21,072 nt of DNA from a virus. The stretch's first letter is position 1; each line of letters begins with the position of its first letter. The notes under the pieces were generated by a model, which worked only from the letters and a program-made list of their open reading frames with translations, was not told the origin of the DNA and did not search any database. Shown piece by piece: positions 1,924 to 16,233 of the stretch. The position numbers were made by a program, and so were the translations under genes. Where the stretch lies: the IMG/VR virus record IMGVR_UViG_3300020125_000248, positions 1 to 21,072 of that record. The stretch is one strand, 5' to 3'.

Positions 1924-3333
1924 ATGGCCAAGAAGGACCACGACCGTGGGGCGTCACCGTTCAGCGGTGCGGATGCTGGCACGCCGCCGGACCCGACCGC
2001 GCACGTGGATGACGTGCCTCGGACGGAGCCGAGCAACGACAACCCGCAAGTGGGTTCGGTCGGCCCCGGAGTGCCGGCCGGGTTCGGCGACGTGCACGCG
2101 GTGTACCCGGTCGGGGGCTGGCACTCAACAGCCTGGCAGGGCTGGCCGGTGGGCTGGGAGACGCCGTTCTACTCGCCGATCACCGGCGGGCCCGGGACGA
2201 TCCTGCCGGGTACCTGGACCGGGTCGGCGATGGACAACTGGCTCTCGACGGTGGTGTGGGCGTGCGTCGACCTGAACTCGCGGGCGCTGCAGCAGATGCC
2301 GCCGACGATCACCAAGTCCCAGGTGGTGTCCAGCCAGGTGGTGCAGGTGCCGGTGTTCGACAACCTGCCGTCCTGGCTGACCAACCCGCACCCCGAGGGC
2401 CAGGTCTACACGTCCTGGGGGGACTTCATCCAGGCCCTGGTCGTGGCACTGGAGATCTTCGGCGAGGCGTTCGTCGTCGCCGACTCGTACTTCGCCACTG
2501 GCTACCCGGCGTCGTTCTTCGTCGCGAACAACATGGCCGTGCAGATCGCCGAGAACCCCGATCCGGAGGGCGTCGGCCCGGTCTACCGGTGGACGAAGAC
2601 GGGCGAGGAGATCGACAACCTGCTGCACATCCGGTACATGACGGTTCCCGGTGACTGCCACGGCCACGGCCCGCTCGAGGGCTCATGGCGGGCGCTGACC
2701 GTGGTGCGCGCCCTGGAGAACTACGCCGCCGAGCTGGCCTCCCAGGGAGGCGTGCCGTGGGGCGTGATCTCCTCCGCGGTCAATCTCGGCAAGGGCGGAG
2801 CCGAAGCGCTGCAAGCACAATGGCGGCAGGCAGCGGCGAACCGGCGCGGTGGGCCCGCGGTGCTGACCGGCGATATCAAGCTGGACATGCTCGCGTTCAA
2901 CCCGTCCGACATGGCGATGCTGGACCTGCTGACGCACTACAGCCAGCGGATCTGCGCCGCGTTCGGCGTGCCGCCGTTCCTCGTCGGGGTGCCCAGCCCC
3001 GAAGGGCTGACGTACTCGAACGCGAACGGGCTGTTCGACTTCCACTACCGCTCCACGCTCAAGTCGTTGTCGGCCAACATGATGACCGCGCTGTCCGGGT
3101 GGGCGTTGCCGTGGGGGACGAACGTCGGGCTGCTCGCTGAGGGCTACGTGCAGCCGGACCTGCAGACCCGGACCCAGGCCAAGCAGCTGATGGCCGCGGC
3201 CGGCGCCCTGACGATCAACGAGTGGCGGGCGTCCGAGGGTCTGCCGCCGCTGCCCGGTGGCGACGGGCCGCCGGGTGTTCCCGCCGCACCGGTGACCACT
3301 CCGAGCGCAGCCGAACTGGAGGCCATGCTGTGA
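1924..3333 (+). CDS. Portal protein (HK97/phage_portal family)
   Basis: The portal ring forms the DNA entry channel at one capsid vertex and docks terminase and connector. The protein is 469 aa from the ATG at 1924, with AGGAG five bases upstream, nine bases after terL stops; upstream in-frame starts inside terL are rejected. Family signatures are the N-terminal segment WLSTVVWACVDLNSRALQQM, a mid-protein ASQGGVPWG stretch, SQRICAAFGVPPFLVG in the clip/stem region, and the C-terminal INEWRASEGLPPLPGGD followed by a Pro/Gly tail. Length fits HK97-type portals. Its end overlaps the GTG of the protease gene, as expected for a coupled head operon. Nothing looks damaged. Confidence 0.93.
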   Translation: MAKKDHDRGASPFSGADAGTPPDPTAHVDDVPRTEPSNDNPQVGSVGPGVPAGFGDVHAVYPVGGWHSTAWQGWPVGWETPFYSPITGGPGTILPGTWTGSAMDNWLSTVVWACVDLNSRALQQMPPTITKSQVVSSQVVQVPVFDNLPSWLTNPHPEGQVYTSWGDFIQALVVALEIFGEAFVVADSYFATGYPASFFVANNMAVQIAENPDPEGVGPVYRWTKTGEEIDNLLHIRYMTVPGDCHGHGPLEGSWRALTVVRALENYAAELASQGGVPWGVISSAVNLGKGGAEALQAQWRQAAANRRGGPAVLTGDIKLDMLAFNPSDMAMLDLLTHYSQRICAAFGVPPFLVGVPSPEGLTYSNANGLFDFHYRSTLKSLSANMMTALSGWALPWGTNVGLLAEGYVQPDLQTRTQAKQLMAAAGALTINEWRASEGLPPLPGGDGPPGVPAAPVTTPSAAELEAML

Positions 3334-3971
3334 ACGACGACGACGTGCTGACCCGTTCGGTCGCACCCGATGACGTGAAGGTCGGCCGCGACGGGCTGGT
3401 CCGGGCGCTCATGGTGCCCTGGATGGTGCCCGCCGACATCACCTAGGTCCGCGGCAACCGGGTGCTCGAGTACCGCGAACAGTGGGCCCGAGGCGCGTTC
3501 GAGCGGGCCGAGAAGGCGCCGCACCGGGTCGCGCTGACCTACACGCACTCGACTGAGTTCCCGAACCTGCTGGGCCGCGGTGTCGAGTTCATCAACGATC
3601 CGGCCGGTGCCATCGGTCTGTTCCGGTTGCTGCCCTCGGTCGCCGACAAGGCGCGCGAGGTGCTCGAGGACTCGCCGGTCTCGATCTCGTTCCGGACGAT
3701 CCGGCCGCAGTTCGGCACCGAGCGCCAGGGCCAGCTGGTGACCCGGCAGGAGGCGCACCTGTCCTACCTCGCCGCCGTCGACAACCCGGCCTACGTCGAC
3801 GCCAGGGTGTTGGCGATCCGGGAGGCGGACCAGGAGGCCCAGGAACGGGCCGCGGCGCGGGCCGAGAGTGACAGGATGCTGGCCGCCACGTTGGCCATGC
3901 TCAAGGCCAACGGGCACGCCCTGTCGGCCGAGCAGGAACGCTGGCTGGCCGAGAATCAGCCCGTCGAGTAG
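3330..3971 (+). pseudogene. HK97-type prohead protease interrupted by in-frame amber codon
   Basis: Family S78/U35 prohead proteases cleave the capsid N-terminal scaffold domain during maturation. The GTG at 3330 overlaps the portal stop and has GGAGG seven bases upstream, so it is the natural start. The frame reads LVRALMVPWMVPADIT, then TAG at 3444-3446 (codon 39). The same frame continues with RGNRVLEYREQWARGAFE and the full protease body to TAG at 3969. Typical family pieces lie on both sides: the leading 'VPW' strand before, YREQ..GAFE after, a candidate catalytic His in TYTHS (~73 in read-through numbering), and a candidate Ser in SPVSISF (~118-120). The interruption is therefore a single nonsense codon in one gene. 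Reinitiation at GTG 3462 would give 169 aa without the first strands. Options are a true knockout, suppression or read-through, or a base-call error. Confidence 0.85.
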
Positions 3972-3980
3972 CGCACCGTC

Positions 3981-4003
3981 CGGGGCCGGTGCTACGGTCC
4001 CCG
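3981..4003 (+). terminator. Hairpin after protease gene
   Basis: CGGGGCCG and CGGTCCCCG pair as an eight-base-pair stem with one bulged T around a six-base GTGCTA loop. It begins nine bases after the protease stop. There is no T tract. It may act as a weak terminator, or as an RNA processing or stability element separating protease from capsid expression; this role is inferred. Confidence 0.4.
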
Positions 4004-4009
4004 ACCAAC

Positions 4010-4102
4010 GGACACCTCGAGAAGCCGCAGTAGCCTCCGGACACCTCCGCACCCAGCACGACGTGGACACCTCCGCCGAAGCGGCGATGGACGACACCTC
4101 CG
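4010..4102 (+). repeat. Four direct repeats of GACACCTC(CG) in the capsid leader
   Basis: GACACCTC cores occur at 4011, 4040, 4066 and 4093, spaced 29, 26 and 27 bases; the last three extend to GACACCTCCG. They lie in the 185-base gap between the protease stop and the capsid start, where I see no convincing gene. The spacings are not multiples of three throughout, so a repeated peptide is unlikely. ACCTCC matches the anti-Shine-Dalgarno core of 16S rRNA, so the RNA could pair with the capsid ribosome site (AGGAG, 4147-4151). That regulatory idea is speculative; the repeats themselves are plain. Confidence 0.5.
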
Positions 4103-4156
4103 ACGTAATGGCCGCGCCCCGGCCTGCCGTCGGAGCGCCTGTCCCCAGGAGTTCCG

Positions 4157-5434
4157 ATGGGCAATGCCCTGCTCGACCACTACTCCGGCAAGCGCGCCGA
4201 GGTGGAGCGTCAGATCCAGACCATCACCGACCTCGCGTTCCAACGCGACGACAAGCAACTGTCCGACCAGGACCGCGAGCAGCTCACCGTCCTCCAGGGC
4301 GAGCTCGACGCGGTCACCCGCGACATCGAGACCGTGGCCAAGCGGTCGGACCTGTCGCAGGGCGCACGGGATGCGTTGCGTTCCAACGACGTCCGCCAGT
4401 CGCAGTCCGGACACCAGTACCGCTCCGCTGGCGAGGTCGTCTGGGACTTGCTGCACCGCCACGACGACGCCGGCGCCCAGCAGCGCTGGGACCAGTTCCG
4501 CGCCGCGAACCCGCAGGGCGCCGAGGTGCAGGACCGGGCCGCGCAGCACATGGGCACCACCGCCGCGGCGACCACTCCGACCGCCGGCGGGTTCGGGTCG
4601 CTGTGGGTGTCCCCGATCCGGGGACCCGTGATCGCGCTGGGCTGGACCGGCACGCCGTTCCTGAACCTGCTGGGCCCGCAGGAGATCACCGCTCCCGGCC
4701 CGTTCATGCGGCCGCGGTTGGTGGACCCGGACTTCTACACCGCGGCCGGGCCGCAGGCCGGTGGTCTGCAGAAGGGCGAGCTGCCGAGCAAGAAATGGGA
4801 CTACGCCTCGGACTTGGTGACCCCGGCGACGGTCGGGAACTACATCAACCTGTCGCTGCAGGCGCAGACCTGGGTGCCGTCCGCGCTGCAGCTGGTCATC
4901 GACCACCTGCAGGCCCGCACCGAGGTGGCGATCGAGAAGGCCGCCGTCGCCGCGGCCGCCAGCACCGACAAGACCGTGATCCTGGCCGCGGACGCGACCG
5001 GCGCCGAGGTCCAGGCCGCGGTGTGGGAGGCCATCGCCGCGGTGTTCACCGCGACGGGCCAGCCGGCGTCGTGGATGACAGCGGGCCCGCTCGGTGCCGC
5101 GATGCTGGGCTCTACCGTCGACCTCGCCGGTCGTCCGCTGTTCCCGATCATCGGGCCGGCCAACGCGCTGGGCACGGCCAACGCGGGGCAGATCATCGCG
5201 CCGTTCGGCCTGGCGTTCGCGGTCACCCCGGCCATCACCGACACCACCCTGTTCGTCGGGAACTCGGTCGGCCTGGAGGCCTACGTCTACCGGTACCCGG
5301 TTCTGGACGCCCTCGAGCCGTCCATCTTGGGCCGTCAGATCGCCGCGGCCGCTGACACCGCGTTCTACAAGGTCCCGACGACCGAGGGCGCACCGGCCAC
5401 CTACGCCGGCATCGTCAAGATCGCCCCGGCCTGA
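4157..5434 (+). CDS. Major capsid protein (HK97 fold)
   Basis: This is the shell protein of the icosahedral head. It is 425 aa from the ATG at 4157, with AGGAG five bases upstream. The N-terminal ~110 residues are charged and helical (EVERQIQTITDLAFQRDD..., then QDREQLTVLQGELDAVTRDI), as in the delta/scaffold domain that prohead protease removes. After a Thr/Ala linker (GTTAAATTPTAGGFG, ~135-150) the HK97 core begins with LWVSPIRGPVI. It contains an E-loop-like segment near KGELPSKKW and a C-terminal FVGNSVGLEAYVYRYPVLDA strand region. Position after portal and protease is canonical. Hairpins lie on both sides of the gene, which may insulate its high expression. If the protease really is null, this scaffold domain would not be removed. 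Confidence 0.93.
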   Translation: MGNALLDHYSGKRAEVERQIQTITDLAFQRDDKQLSDQDREQLTVLQGELDAVTRDIETVAKRSDLSQGARDALRSNDVRQSQSGHQYRSAGEVVWDLLHRHDDAGAQQRWDQFRAANPQGAEVQDRAAQHMGTTAAATTPTAGGFGSLWVSPIRGPVIALGWTGTPFLNLLGPQEITAPGPFMRPRLVDPDFYTAAGPQAGGLQKGELPSKKWDYASDLVTPATVGNYINLSLQAQTWVPSALQLVIDHLQARTEVAIEKAAVAAAASTDKTVILAADATGAEVQAAVWEAIAAVFTATGQPASWMTAGPLGAAMLGSTVDLAGRPLFPIIGPANALGTANAGQIIAPFGLAFAVTPAITDTTLFVGNSVGLEAYVYRYPVLDALEPSILGRQIAAAADTAFYKVPTTEGAPATYAGIVKIAPA

Positions 5435-7530: not shown

Positions 7531-7848
7531 GTGTCTGACAAGCAATGGACCCGGGACAGTTTCGACGTGCTGCTCGAGGACGGCACGGAATTTCTGGGCG
7601 TGGCCGTGTCCTACGCCGACCGGATCGCCTGGGCGAAATTCGCCGCCGAACGCAAGGAGTCCGGCGCCGGCGACTGGCGCGTCGACACCGCCGGCACCCT
7701 GTGGTGCGCGCTGCGCCGCACCGGTCTGATTGCCCAGTCGTTCACCTGGCCCAGCTTCTGGCCGCAGATCGCGGACTGGGACAAGGTCGACATCGAGCGG
7801 GTGGACCCTACCGGGCAGGCGAGTGGCAGCGACTCGCCTGCGAACTAG
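7531..7848 (+). CDS. Tail assembly chaperone G
   Basis: The protein is 105 aa from a GTG three bases after the previous stop. It is acidic and aromatic-rich (SFDVLLEDGTEFLGVAV, WPSFWPQIADWDKVDIERVD) and ends TGQASGSDSPAN. Immediately upstream of the tape measure gene and overlapped by a second frame, it matches the G component of the G/GT chaperone pair that coats the tape measure protein during tail assembly. Sequence conservation in this family is poor, so identification relies on position, size and the overlapping frame. Confidence 0.72.
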   Translation: MSDKQWTRDSFDVLLEDGTEFLGVAVSYADRIAWAKFAAERKESGAGDWRVDTAGTLWCALRRTGLIAQSFTWPSFWPQIADWDKVDIERVDPTGQASGSDSPAN

Positions 7849-7982
7849 CGATCGCCGTCCCGGGCACGACGCCCGACTATTGGATGGCCGCCGATGACCG
7901 GGTGACAGCAACGATGCTCGACGTGTTGGAGGCCCGGAACAGCAAGCGCGACAAGGCGAGAGGCGGCAGGCGTGGCCACTAA
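7531..7982 (+). CDS. Tail assembly chaperone GT (-1 frameshift product)
   Basis: The frame one base back from G stays open past the G stop and ends at TAA 7980-7982, inside the start of the tape measure gene. It reads GEWQRLACELAIAVPG, then TPDYWMAADDRVTATMLDVL and a basic tail. That is the usual T-extension style (helical, with a 'MLDVLEA' helix). The geometry is the conserved -1 frameshift of long-tailed phages. I find no canonical XXXYYYZ heptamer in the overlap. The best local slip candidate is the CCCT run at 7806-7809, where a Pro codon CCT could re-pair as CCC. The fused product is therefore inferred, and the exact crossover is uncertain. Confidence 0.6.
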
Positions 7983-9741
7983 GACCACCAGGGTTGTCGC
8001 GCAAATCGCCGCCCAGGTCACCGGCACCGACGACATGACCGACCTGTCCAAGCAGCTCGACAAGATCCCCGACAAGACCGACGCCGTGGTCGCCGCCACC
8101 GTCACCGGCTGGCAGGACGTCGACGGCCTGTCCGCCGACCTGAAGGCGCTACCCGCCACGACCGACACCGCGGTGTCGACGACTGTCACCGGCGATGACA
8201 AGGTCGACGGCCTGGCCACCGACATCGCCGGCCTGCCGTCGTCGACGACACCCAAGGTCGCCGCCACGGTCACCGGCGATGACAAGGTCGACGGGATCGC
8301 CGCGGACATCAACGGCATACCCACGTCGACGACACCGAAGGTCTCCGCGACTGTGACGGGCGCCGACAAGGTCGACGCCCTGGTCGACAAGCTGGCCAAC
8401 GCGCCCAAGTCGGACACGTTCACTGTGACCGCCAACATCAAGGAGACCGGCGCCAAGGGCGGCATCAAACAGGTCGGCGAGGACATCGACACCGTCAAGG
8501 GCAAGGCGTCCGGGCTGGCCACGTCGGGCGCCGGGTTCGCCTCCACGTTCCTCGGCCCGTTCTCCAACGCGACCGGCATCTTCGGCGACCTCGCAGAACA
8601 GATCAGCGCCGTGTCGGGGGAAGCGGAGGAGACCGGCGGGAAGCTGAAAGGGCTGGGCACTGCCGCCGCCGGCGCCGGCGTGACCATCGTGGCAGGCCTG
8701 GCCGTCGACGCCATCGTCGGGGCGTTCCAGGAGATAGGCGCCGCGCAAGCCGAGGTGAAAGGCGTCACCGATGACCTGACGCAGTCGCTGGTTGACAACG
8801 GCGGCGCATGGGACGACAACGCGCAACGCGCACTGATCGCGAGCCTGTCACAAACGGACGCATTCAAAAAACTGTCCGCCGCCGGCATCGACTACGACAC
8901 GATCATGGACGGTCTGACCGGCAAGCAAGGCGGAATGGAAAAGCTGAATCAGGCCATCATCAATTCCGGCGACTTCGGCGCGCTCAAGACATTGAAAGAG
9001 GCCAACGCGCTGTCACACGTGGGCGCGAACAGTCGGAAGGCCGCGCAGGCCGCGCTGGCCTACGCGAAGAAAAACGACCTATTGACCGACGCCCAAAAAG
9101 CCGGGCTGGCATCCGCCGACAAACAGGCGGACGGCCTGGACGACCTGGGCACCGCCGCCTCCGACGCCGGCGACAAGATCGGCGACACCACCAGTCAGGT
9201 CAAGACCTACAACGGCACCGAGATACCGCCCAAGGACGCCGTCATCACCGGGGACGCCTCCGACGCCAATCAAGCGATCCGGGAGGTCCAGGACGCCCGC
9301 CTACCGCCGAAGGTGCAGACGCTACGCGGCGACGACACCGACGCAACCCGGAAGATCGCCGCGCTCAAGGGCGAAAAGTTCCCGCCGCTAGAGGCGAAGA
9401 TCAACGTCACCGACAACTCCGCGCACGCCCAAGGCCGCATTCAACAGGTCGCCGACCACGGCTACGAGGCGAAGATCAAAGTCACCCCGGTATTCGGCCA
9501 CGCCGAAGGACATTTCACCGTCATTGTCGACGGCGCGCCGCGCTCGGCCGGCACCTCGCCGGCGCCGGCGCCGACCCTGCGGGGCGTGGGCGCCTCGGCG
9601 ACCACCTCGGCCGGCCCGGCCGTCGTGAACATCACCGTGAATGGGGCGATCGACAAGGACGGCACCGCGCGGACCATCGGCCGGCTGCTCGGCGGGCGGG
9701 CGCGCCGGCTGCACCCGACCCGGATCGGCGGGCGCACGTGA
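7972..9741 (+). CDS. Tail tape measure protein
   Basis: It sets tail length and is ejected with DNA. It is 589 aa from the GTG at 7972, overlapping the GT stop. Residues 14-153 are five tandem 28-residue units (ATVTGDDKVDGIAADINGIP type). A helical, Gly/Ala-rich hydrophobic stretch at ~225-255 (GAGVTIVAGLAVDAIVGAF) is the membrane-interacting segment usual in tape measures. Residues 423-503 are three 27-residue units of similar strand-helix-strand pattern. The C-terminus (~515-589) is Ala/Pro-rich, then basic (GRLLGGRARRLHPTRIGGR). At roughly 0.15 nm per residue, a known rule for tape measures, the tail would be near 90 nm. Position between the chaperones and the hub protein is canonical. Confidence 0.9.
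   Translation: MATKTTRVVAQIAAQVTGTDDMTDLSKQLDKIPDKTDAVVAATVTGWQDVDGLSADLKALPATTDTAVSTTVTGDDKVDGLATDIAGLPSSTTPKVAATVTGDDKVDGIAADINGIPTSTTPKVSATVTGADKVDALVDKLANAPKSDTFTVTANIKETGAKGGIKQVGEDIDTVKGKASGLATSGAGFASTFLGPFSNATGIFGDLAEQISAVSGEAEETGGKLKGLGTAAAGAGVTIVAGLAVDAIVGAFQEIGAAQAEVKGVTDDLTQSLVDNGGAWDDNAQRALIASLSQTDAFKKLSAAGIDYDTIMDGLTGKQGGMEKLNQAIINSGDFGALKTLKEANALSHVGANSRKAAQAALAYAKKNDLLTDAQKAGLASADKQADGLDDLGTAASDAGDKIGDTTSQVKTYNGTEIPPKDAVITGDASDANQAIREVQDARLPPKVQTLRGDDTDATRKIAALKGEKFPPLEAKINVTDNSAHAQGRIQQVADHGYEAKIKVTPVFGHAEGHFTVIVDGAPRSAGTSPAPAPTLRGVGASATTSAGPAVVNITVNGAIDKDGTARTIGRLLGGRARRLHPTRIGGRT
8011..8430 (+). repeat. Five tandem 84-bp coding repeats in tape measure N-terminus
   Basis: Five consecutive 28-codon units encode the pattern [A/T]xVTGxDxVxxLxxxLxxIPxxT...V. 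Units two to five share VTG, a D/V pair, and an 'LP/IP..T' turn. Units three and four are nearly the same (VTGDDKVDGLATDI versus VTGDDKVDGIAADI). The whole array stays in frame. It may expand or contract by recombination and so change tail length. Confidence 0.9.
9238..9480 (+). repeat. Three tandem 81-bp coding repeats in tape measure C-terminal part
   Basis: Three 27-codon units read AVITGDASDANQAIREVQDA, TLRGDDTDATRKIAALKGEK and INVTDNSAHAQGRIQQVADH, each followed by a seven-residue strand (RLPPKVQ, FPPLEAK, GYEAKIK). DNA identity is low but the protein periodicity is exact. The strand-helix-strand pattern resembles the N-terminal 28-residue units. Confidence 0.75.
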
Positions 9742-13613: not shown

Positions 13614-13879
13614 TGGCCTCAATCTGGCCTCAACATTCCGCGAAACAGTCGGCAACGACGGACACACCGTGACGCCCTCCGACTATCCCACGACGCCGAC
13701 AATCGTTCTCCGTCAATCACATTAGCCGGCCCGCGAGCGCGTCCAGCGTTGTCCACCGTTGTCCCACGTTTCTGGCGGATGGTCCTGGGTGAACCAGCCC
13801 GGCCGGGTGCCGGTATGCCCCTGACCTGCGGAGACACTCATTTACCGGACCCGCTTGGCCTCACTTTGGCCTCAACACT
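13614..13879. other. Candidate phage attachment site (attP)
   Basis: TGGCCTCA boxes occur in two pairs, at 13614 and 13625 and again at 13856 and 13867, each pair spaced 11 bases (one helical turn). The two 24-base pairs match at 21 positions. Between them, at 13741-13770, are three tandem decamers: GTCCAGCGTT, GTCCACCGTT and GTCCCACGTT. Paired arm-type sites flanking a core over ~266 bp is how tyrosine-integrase attP sites are built (lambda attP is ~240 bp). The right pair lies in the 3' end of int. The 266 bases from 13572 to 13837 hold no gene. The crossover core itself cannot be located without the matching attB. Confidence 0.6.
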
Positions 13880-14926
13880 GGTCCACGCTGTGTTCAAAAC
13901 GCTCCGGACCCGCGTCTCCGAGTCCGGCCACAGGTGCGCATACGTCGACAGCGTGATCGTCGGGGACGAGTGCCCCAGGAACGCCGCGACGTCAGTGACC
14001 GGCACCCCCTGGACGATGAGCAGCGACGCGGCGAAGTGCCGCAGGTCGTGCGGCCGCAACCCCGGATCGCACCCTGCGGCCTTGCGGGCCACCTTCCAGG
14101 CCGACCCGATGGTCGTGTGCGCGACCGGCCTGCCGTCCGACCGTGCCATCAGCGTCCCGCTGCCCCGGCCGAACTCAGCCACATACTCGGCCAGGACCTC
14201 GACCGCCCAATCCGGAATCGGCACCGCGCGCTCGCTGCTCGGCGTCTTCAACGGTCCGAGCTCATAGGTCGTCCCGTTCACCTGCCGTTGCACCGAGAGC
14301 GTCCGCCGAAGCCAATCCACATCGCCGGCGGCAACCCCGAGACTCTCGGACGGCCGGAGCCCACAGCCGGCGCCGAGCGCCACGTACGGGCGGAACTCGG
14401 CCGGCATCGCGTCCACCAGCCGGCCCACCTCCTCCACGGTCGGAAGGATGTAGTCGCCTCGCGGCACCGGCGCCCGCTTGACCAGCTCCATCGGATTCGA
14501 CGCCAGCAGCCGGTCCGCCACGGCCGCGCGGAGCACCTGAGACAGCAGACGCATCGTGGCCGCCACGGTGTTGGGCGAATACCGGCGCCGCAAGCCGCGC
14601 TGAAAGGCAGCCAGATCGCTCGGACGCAGCGATGCGAGTAGGCGGTCCCCGAGATCCGGAAAGACGCGGGCCCCGAGGACGTACGCCCGAGTGCGGGCCG
14701 TGGATTCGCGATGCGGCAGGTCCGCCAACCACCGCTCCGCGAACTCCCGCACGGTGATCTTGCGGGCCGCGGCGATGTCCAGGTCGACGCCGCGATCGAT
14801 GTCAGCCCGGCGGGCACGTTCCCACGCCGCCGCATCCTTGCGCAGCGTGAAGTCCTTGGAGTGCTGCCGTCCCGACGTATCGCGGAACCTGGCGCGACAG
14901 GTGCCATTCGATCGTTTCGCGGGCAT
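13838..14926 (-). CDS. int: Tyrosine integrase
   Basis: It catalyses site-specific integration and, with a directionality factor, excision. It is 362 aa from the ATG at 14926, with GAGAGG upstream; an in-frame upstream start inside the repressor is rejected. An N-terminal arm-binding part (RARFRDTSGRQHSKDFTLRK) leads to a SAM-like core-binding domain (~55-145: ITVREFAERWLADL, SPNTVAATMRLLSQVLRAAV). The catalytic domain has R191 (GCGLRPSES), K227 (PLKTP), H293 and R296 (RPHDLRHFAA), H319 (LGHSSP) and nucleophile Y329 (LSTYAHLW). All key residues are present, so it should be active. The start overlaps the repressor stop (TGATG), so both share one transcript, and its 3' end contains two of the arm-like boxes. 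Confidence 0.93.
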   Translation of the reverse strand: MPAKRSNGTCRARFRDTSGRQHSKDFTLRKDAAAWERARRADIDRGVDLDIAAARKITVREFAERWLADLPHRESTARTRAYVLGARVFPDLGDRLLASLRPSDLAAFQRGLRRRYSPNTVAATMRLLSQVLRAAVADRLLASNPMELVKRAPVPRGDYILPTVEEVGRLVDAMPAEFRPYVALGAGCGLRPSESLGVAAGDVDWLRRTLSVQRQVNGTTYELGPLKTPSSERAVPIPDWAVEVLAEYVAEFGRGSGTLMARSDGRPVAHTTIGSAWKVARKAAGCDPGLRPHDLRHFAASLLIVQGVPVTDVAAFLGHSSPTITLSTYAHLWPDSETRVRSVLNTAWTSVEAKVRPSGSGK

Positions 14927-15421
14927 CAGAGGAACCTCTCCGAGATCTCCTCGTTGACCGTCTCGAAGATGTCCTTCCAACCTCGGTCGCTCATGATGAC
15001 CGTCATGTCGCCGCCGGTGTAGAAGTGGCGCTGCGTCAGCGTCGGCCAGCCCGGCGGGCCATTGCGCAGGTAATGCTCCCGGTCAGAAGTCGGGGCGGCG
15101 TCGAACCCGATGACCCACCTAGCGGCGGACCGGGAGTCCATCGTGAGCGTCGGTGAGACCTGGACTCCCTCGCCATCGGCCAGGTCGTCCGGCCCGGGCT
15201 CAGGACTCAGCAGGACCGCCGGCGCGACGTTCAGCGCCAGGGCCAGGACGAACAGCTGGTCCATGCTGACCGACTTCTGTTTGCCGCTCTCCAGCGAGGC
15301 TGGAATCCCGGCTGATGGGCGCTCCGATAGCCGCGGTCCGGTCGGCGAGTTGTGCGGCCGACAGCTCGGCTTGACGCCGCAGGCGGCGCACGTTCGCGCG
15401 GAGGATCTCGTTAGGTGTCAT
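14926..15421 (-). pseudogene. XRE-family phage repressor, reading frame broken
   Basis: It starts at the ATG at 15421: MTPNEILRANVRRLRRQAEL, then SAAQLADRTAAIGAPISR, an HTH_3 N-terminus. In that frame the sequence then turns into low-quality residues. A different frame picks up as IPASLESGKQKSVSMDQLFV, then LALALNVAPAVLLSPEP, exactly the second half of the HTH domain plus linker and a ~90-residue C-terminus ending FETVNEEISERFL. The switch lies near 15308-15312. Homologous HTH domains have six residues between ISR/ITR and ESG/ENG; 16 bases occupy that space here instead of 18, so a two-base deletion (or one-base insertion) is implied. Loss would abolish lysogeny maintenance. A base-call error in the GGG context is the main alternative. 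The gene is coupled to int. Confidence 0.8.
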
Positions 15422-15777: not shown

Positions 15778-16035
15778 CTACGGCACTGGAACGAGCACTG
15801 GCTCGCTCAGCTCGTTGCAGGTCACTTCCACCAGGCCGGGATTCGGGGCCTCCAACGACGCCGCCAGGGCGAACACCGCCGATTCGTCGGGTTCAAGGGT
15901 CGCGTCCGTTGGTCCGTTCTGCATGAGCATCCCGGGACCCGGCCTGACTGCGACGCCCGTGGCGCGAGCCGTGCCGACATTGCGCACGGCATATCCCGGG
16001 CCCCTGCGCTCCACCCTGAACTCGACCGTTGGCAT
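15778..16035 (-). CDS. Minus-strand orphan protein, unknown function
   Basis: The protein is 85 aa from an ATG at 16035, with GAAAGGGAG seven bases ahead; this decides both strand and start. It begins PTVEFRVERRGPGYAVRNVG, continues TARATGVAVRPGPGMLM and LEPDESAVFALAASLEAPNP, and ends ELSEPVLVPVP. The alternation of strands and the 'VRNVGTA.ATGV' centre suggest a small beta-sandwich domain of the kind that follows 'conserved Gly-Thr-Ala' strands in Ig-like folds. It lies alone against the early operon, so it is probably transcribed from its own promoter during lysogeny (a moron). A long + strand frame over the same bases is considered its shadow. Confidence 0.65.
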   Translation of the reverse strand: MPTVEFRVERRGPGYAVRNVGTARATGVAVRPGPGMLMQNGPTDATLEPDESAVFALAASLEAPNPGLVEVTCNELSEPVLVPVP

Positions 16036-16233
16036 AGATGGCTCCCTTTCGGTTGTCCAGGGCGCTGGAACGCCCGGGGATGACACGACCGTATTGGACA
16101 GCAGGGACGCTCGCGGCGTTGTCGGCCCCTCCGCCGCCAGGGGTGTCCCTGCACCTGTTTCGCGGTAACACGTTGCGCCCTGCCGCGTCCCCGGCCGGGT
16201 ACGCGGTCACGACCCATCCCTCCGGGAGTAGCC

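Follow-up and report, generated by a model that had tools for sequence, protein, structure and literature searches.

A single in-frame amber codon (TAG, 3444–3446) interrupts the prohead protease gene of a temperate, GC-rich, actinophage-like genome, and this codon is very probably a single, recent and unconserved nonsense change at a glutamate codon, either as a mutation of the genome itself or as a one-base error of the consensus. The window, i.e., the whole stretch of DNA analysed, is a 21,072-base virus record containing terminase, portal, protease, capsid and tail genes, together with a tyrosine integrase, a candidate MerR-like excisionase and a weak match to RecT. Taken as written, translation would end after 38 residues and yield no active protease. 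The sequenced genome may carry a real nonsense mutation, and would then represent a defective or minor-variant phage, a state that a temperate phage can tolerate; alternatively, the metagenome consensus may be wrong at one base.

The interrupted prohead protease gene

The protease frame (3330–3971) runs from GTG 3330 to TAG 3969–3971 and is open throughout except at codon 39; this gene, all elements described within it and the neighboring portal and capsid genes lie on the + strand. Re-reading the frame confirmed the position of the TAG inside the protease gene given by the original prediction, which had also considered the start to be fixed by a GGAGG motif and an overlap with the portal gene. 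Indeed, GGAGG (3318–3322) sits 7 nt 5′ of GTG 3330, the start codon overlaps the portal stop (TGA, 3331–3333), and the predicted ribosome-binding duplex reaches −10.6 kcal/mol at GTG 3330 versus −3.6 at GTG 3462. A mis-chosen protease start is ruled out by this strong ribosome site combined with the conserved 5′ segment. The gene order is portal-protease-capsid, with an intact portal gene (1924–3333; Pfam PF04860, E 3e-39) and an intact major capsid gene (4157–5434; 75% identical to the relative L002 and 27% to the MooMoo major head protein), both free of internal stops. Among the 28 ORFs checked in the window, the protease alone contains an internal stop.

The part of the protein that follows the stop matches Pfam Peptidase_S78 (PF04586) with an E-value of 1.1e-5 and 26.1 bits (curated cut-off, 21), and the read-through protein matches PHROG 80, the head maturation protease; the 38-residue 5′ part (3330–3443) has no Pfam match by itself, and it aligns unbroken with the relatives described below, in keeping with the earlier claim of homology on both sides of the TAG. 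A fold model of the read-through protease, computed from an alignment of 12 sequences and with glutamine put in place of the stop for folding only, reached a pLDDT of 80. Its best match among solved structures is T4 gp21 (5jbl, E 5e-4), followed by herpesvirus proteases with weaker scores, and it also matches many phage prohead proteases in BFVD. Four predicted strands (residues 7–11, 16–18, 23–31 and 35–41) lie before or around the TAG, the 5′ part containing the first three and the start of the fourth. Downstream of it lie His73 (3546–3548) and Ser118 (3681–3683), which are invariant in alignments of 3, 5 and 12 sequences and are, from this conservation, the candidate catalytic histidine and serine.

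Sequence, gene order and predicted fold therefore place the read-through protein among the S78/HK97-type prohead (capsid maturation) proteases. It shares these three features and the invariant His and Ser with the Peptidase_S78/HK97 family (PF04586), T4 gp21 and herpesvirus assemblin-type proteases, but differs from the family in that its reading frame is broken. Since the TAG at codon 39 leaves no complete open reading frame, the locus is an interrupted homologous gene whose product is a predicted protease only. Note that a tblastn search of the protease against annotated phages, a search of protease and portal in genome contigs and a sequence-profile search of the protease against solved structures gave no match.

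Codon 39 in relatives and selection on the gene

Seven protease relatives (L002, L003, L174, L178, L179, L180 and L181), with 37–66% identity to the window, were compared at codon 39. An initial protein search provided L002, and more were reached through a tail-protein search followed by a search with a three-sequence protease alignment; L003 completes the set. All seven have a glutamate codon at the aligned position, and the stop occurs in the window alone; homology with these relatives is unbroken across both sides of the TAG. Because L174 and L178 are near copies and L179–L181 form one group, these sequences amount to approximately four independent lineages. The original prediction had proposed CAG or GAG as the codon changed to TAG, and the relatives support glutamate. 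In the 12-sequence alignment, more distant freshwater-phage proteases display a gap near codon 39.

Beyond these relatives, no genuine interruption was found among approximately 50 other protease-bearing loci, a small and non-random sample. An apparent stop in the L044 protease was not counted, as the query most likely began before the start codon, nor were several apparent internal stops in capsid matches, for which the queries most likely included leader codons. The closest relative found, L173 (91% identity in the major tail protein), has a sequence that leaves the protease uncovered.

Relative to L002, the pN/pS ratio is 0.505 for the protease, compared to 0.391 for both portal and capsid, suggesting that the gene was under selection until recently. 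Alignment and pN/pS values below 1 indicate coding constraint on both sides of the TAG, weaker on the 5′ side, where the 38 preceding codons give 0.76 from few sites. An old pseudogene is rejected on these ratios and on the intact remainder.

The amber identity of the stop carries little information. Indeed, 57 of the 1917 possible single-base changes in the protease gene create a stop, and 45 of these 57 give TAG, so that most random nonsense changes in this gene would be amber.

Explanations for the amber codon

The original prediction had left five options for the TAG, namely a lethal mutation, host suppression, programmed read-through, reinitiation and a base-call error. With glutamate in the relatives, conserved programmed read-through falls away; natural restart is countered by the upstream segment that the relatives keep, and mutation or base-call error remain. 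A consensus error, in which the phage has a sense codon that the assembly misreports by one base, carries about an even chance. It is consistent with a single internal stop in an otherwise intact contig, with the glutamate being invariant in seven relatives, and with the phage genes found on both sides of the tyrosine integrase (13838–14980), an arrangement by which the contig looks like a free, presumably viable phage rather than an integrated or decaying prophage. Against it, consensus errors are rare in well-covered contigs.

A real nonsense mutation is a serious contender, somewhat short of even odds. The DNA would then belong to a defective or minor-variant phage, maintained in the prophage state or through complementation, or present only as DNA that gives no infectious particles. 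The integrase, the excisionase-like gene and the RecT-like gene point to a temperate phage, in which a protease nonsense mutation is not immediately lethal, but no other decay is seen in the window and the gene order suggests free phage DNA. Published work on bacterial genes has found in-frame stops to be widespread polymorphisms, short-lived for the most part, that are enriched in genes of phages and transposons and include many artefacts (PMC7918605); this over-representation in mobile elements also favors a real mutation. The window resembles that published set in having one stop, purifying selection, a sense codon in relatives and a mobile-element gene, and differs from it in that the published stops were required in two or more species, whereas ours was seen once. 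Taken together, a consensus error or minor variant is slightly favored, as the integrase is flanked by phage genes, giving the look of a free phage, and nothing else is broken.

Programmed read-through, amber reassignment and a natural restart are all three unlikely. Suppression in the host is improbable too: an amber suppressor or leaky termination would have to produce full-length protease in amounts sufficient for infectivity. The whole reading frame is under purifying selection, a pattern that functional suppression would leave as well, and codon 39 falls in a length-variable hairpin region, where several residues might be tolerated. Against this, none of the seven relatives conserves the TAG, no structure was found after the stop (folding z-scores of 0.07 and 0.00), and the 21 kb record, possibly a fragment, yielded no tRNA gene. 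As every one of the seven relatives carries glutamate, conserved programmed read-through is likewise removed: the window shares with known cases a stop in frame and homologous protein to either side of it, but its stop is unconserved and no stimulatory structure was found. It is very improbable that the amber codon acts as a functional, lineage-specific regulator, with low suppression or read-through limiting the protease dose so that heads are assembled before cleavage. If independent genomes had kept the TAG, this would be an uncommon example of an essential head protease with a suppression-set dose.

Reinitiation at GTG 3462 (3462–3464, codon 45), giving a working shorter protease, has a very slim chance. 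This in-frame GTG lies 15 nt 3′ of the stop, and both His73 and Ser118 lie downstream of it, but its ribosome site is weak (−3.6 kcal/mol), and the short form would lose the four predicted strands as well as R9, D15, V29 and P30, which are invariant in 12 sequences. Its single-sequence model is poor (pLDDT 50) and speaks neither for nor against the short form. The original prediction had noted that relatives starting at the equivalent of GTG 3462 would speak against an interrupted gene; on the contrary, the upstream segment is kept in the relatives and none is known to start there. The lost strands and this kept segment rule out GTG 3462 as the natural start.

Some phages read amber as an amino acid, and an in-frame TAG is common to them and the window. 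Genome-wide reassignment has almost no chance here: nothing speaks for it beyond the single codon 39, and if TAG were read as sense, terL would run on for 119 codons, into the portal gene, and the protease for 219, into the capsid gene. Instead of many in-frame TAGs and avoidance of TAG as terminator, the window has one internal TAG and uses this codon as an ordinary terminator in 5 of its 27 complete ORFs (terL, the protease, the 7531–7848 ORF, the excisionase-like ORF and the 15778–16086 ORF), as the original prediction had argued from other genes ending in TAG. On these terminators, reassignment is rejected; no tRNA gene, suppressor or other, was found in the record, which may be a fragment.

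Repeat array before the capsid gene and genome context

The gap between protease and capsid (3972–4156) contains four copies of GACACCTC, with spacings of 29, 26 and 27, forming an array at 4009–4103. More generally, a non-coding CGACACCTCG array of 3–4 copies lies on the coding strand directly 5′ of the major capsid gene. The same array was observed at L002 (2105–2185), L003 (3556–3640), L072, L095, L131, L147 and approximately 45 other loci, and is absent from L174. In a pattern scan of other viral contigs, arrays with three or four copies appeared, their spacings often at or near 22, 17 and 23. Once coding repeats were set aside, 54 array entries had a homologous capsid ORF directly downstream, three of which are the window itself (the window, L001 and L128).

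From 59 arrays, 68 distinct units were obtained, with the consensus gCGACACCTCGc. Twelve leaders were read closely, and each has the motif on a single strand. Array spacing is not a multiple of three. A small hairpin formed by pairing of the unit flanks has weak support, at a single position. The proteases of the other array phages, where matched, are mostly only about 30% identical to that of the window, and Rfam searches with the window, L002, L003, MooMoo and prophiGD91-2 loci gave no match. The sequence ACACCTC is similar to the anti-Shine-Dalgarno end of 16S rRNA. The array looks like a candidate capsid-leader regulatory element.

Different short repeats were observed in the same gap of other actinophages, i.e., MooMoo (L005, 3690–3780), prophiGD91-2 (L006, 3775–3850) and Bipper/Dove (L182/L185). 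They consist of GRCYGAAnnGnAGTARGYC, present in three copies whose 4-base ends apparently covary, or of CCCTGGCACTGGG-like hairpins. The occurrence of different repeats in the same gap suggests that repeated small elements ahead of the capsid gene are a general theme.

Elsewhere in the window, positions 7531–7982 likely encode a tail assembly chaperone pair, in which the first ORF stops at TAG 7846–7848 and an overlapping frame runs to 7982. This layout is the one expected for a programmed frameshift, and the region folds better than shuffled sequences (z −3.1). Compared to L173, the window displays 89% DNA identity from 6607 (L173 2772) onwards and no similarity before, and this point is a sharp junction between head and tail modules. 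In addition, repeats within the tape measure gene (8006–8397) give several overlapping matches to L173.

Altogether, the lone protease TAG is a true observation of an ordinary sort of event. It calls for caution, as a lone in-frame stop at a position where every relative has a sense codon is no evidence of recoding. The CGACACCTCG array is a better lead than the protease TAG and deserves a study of its own.
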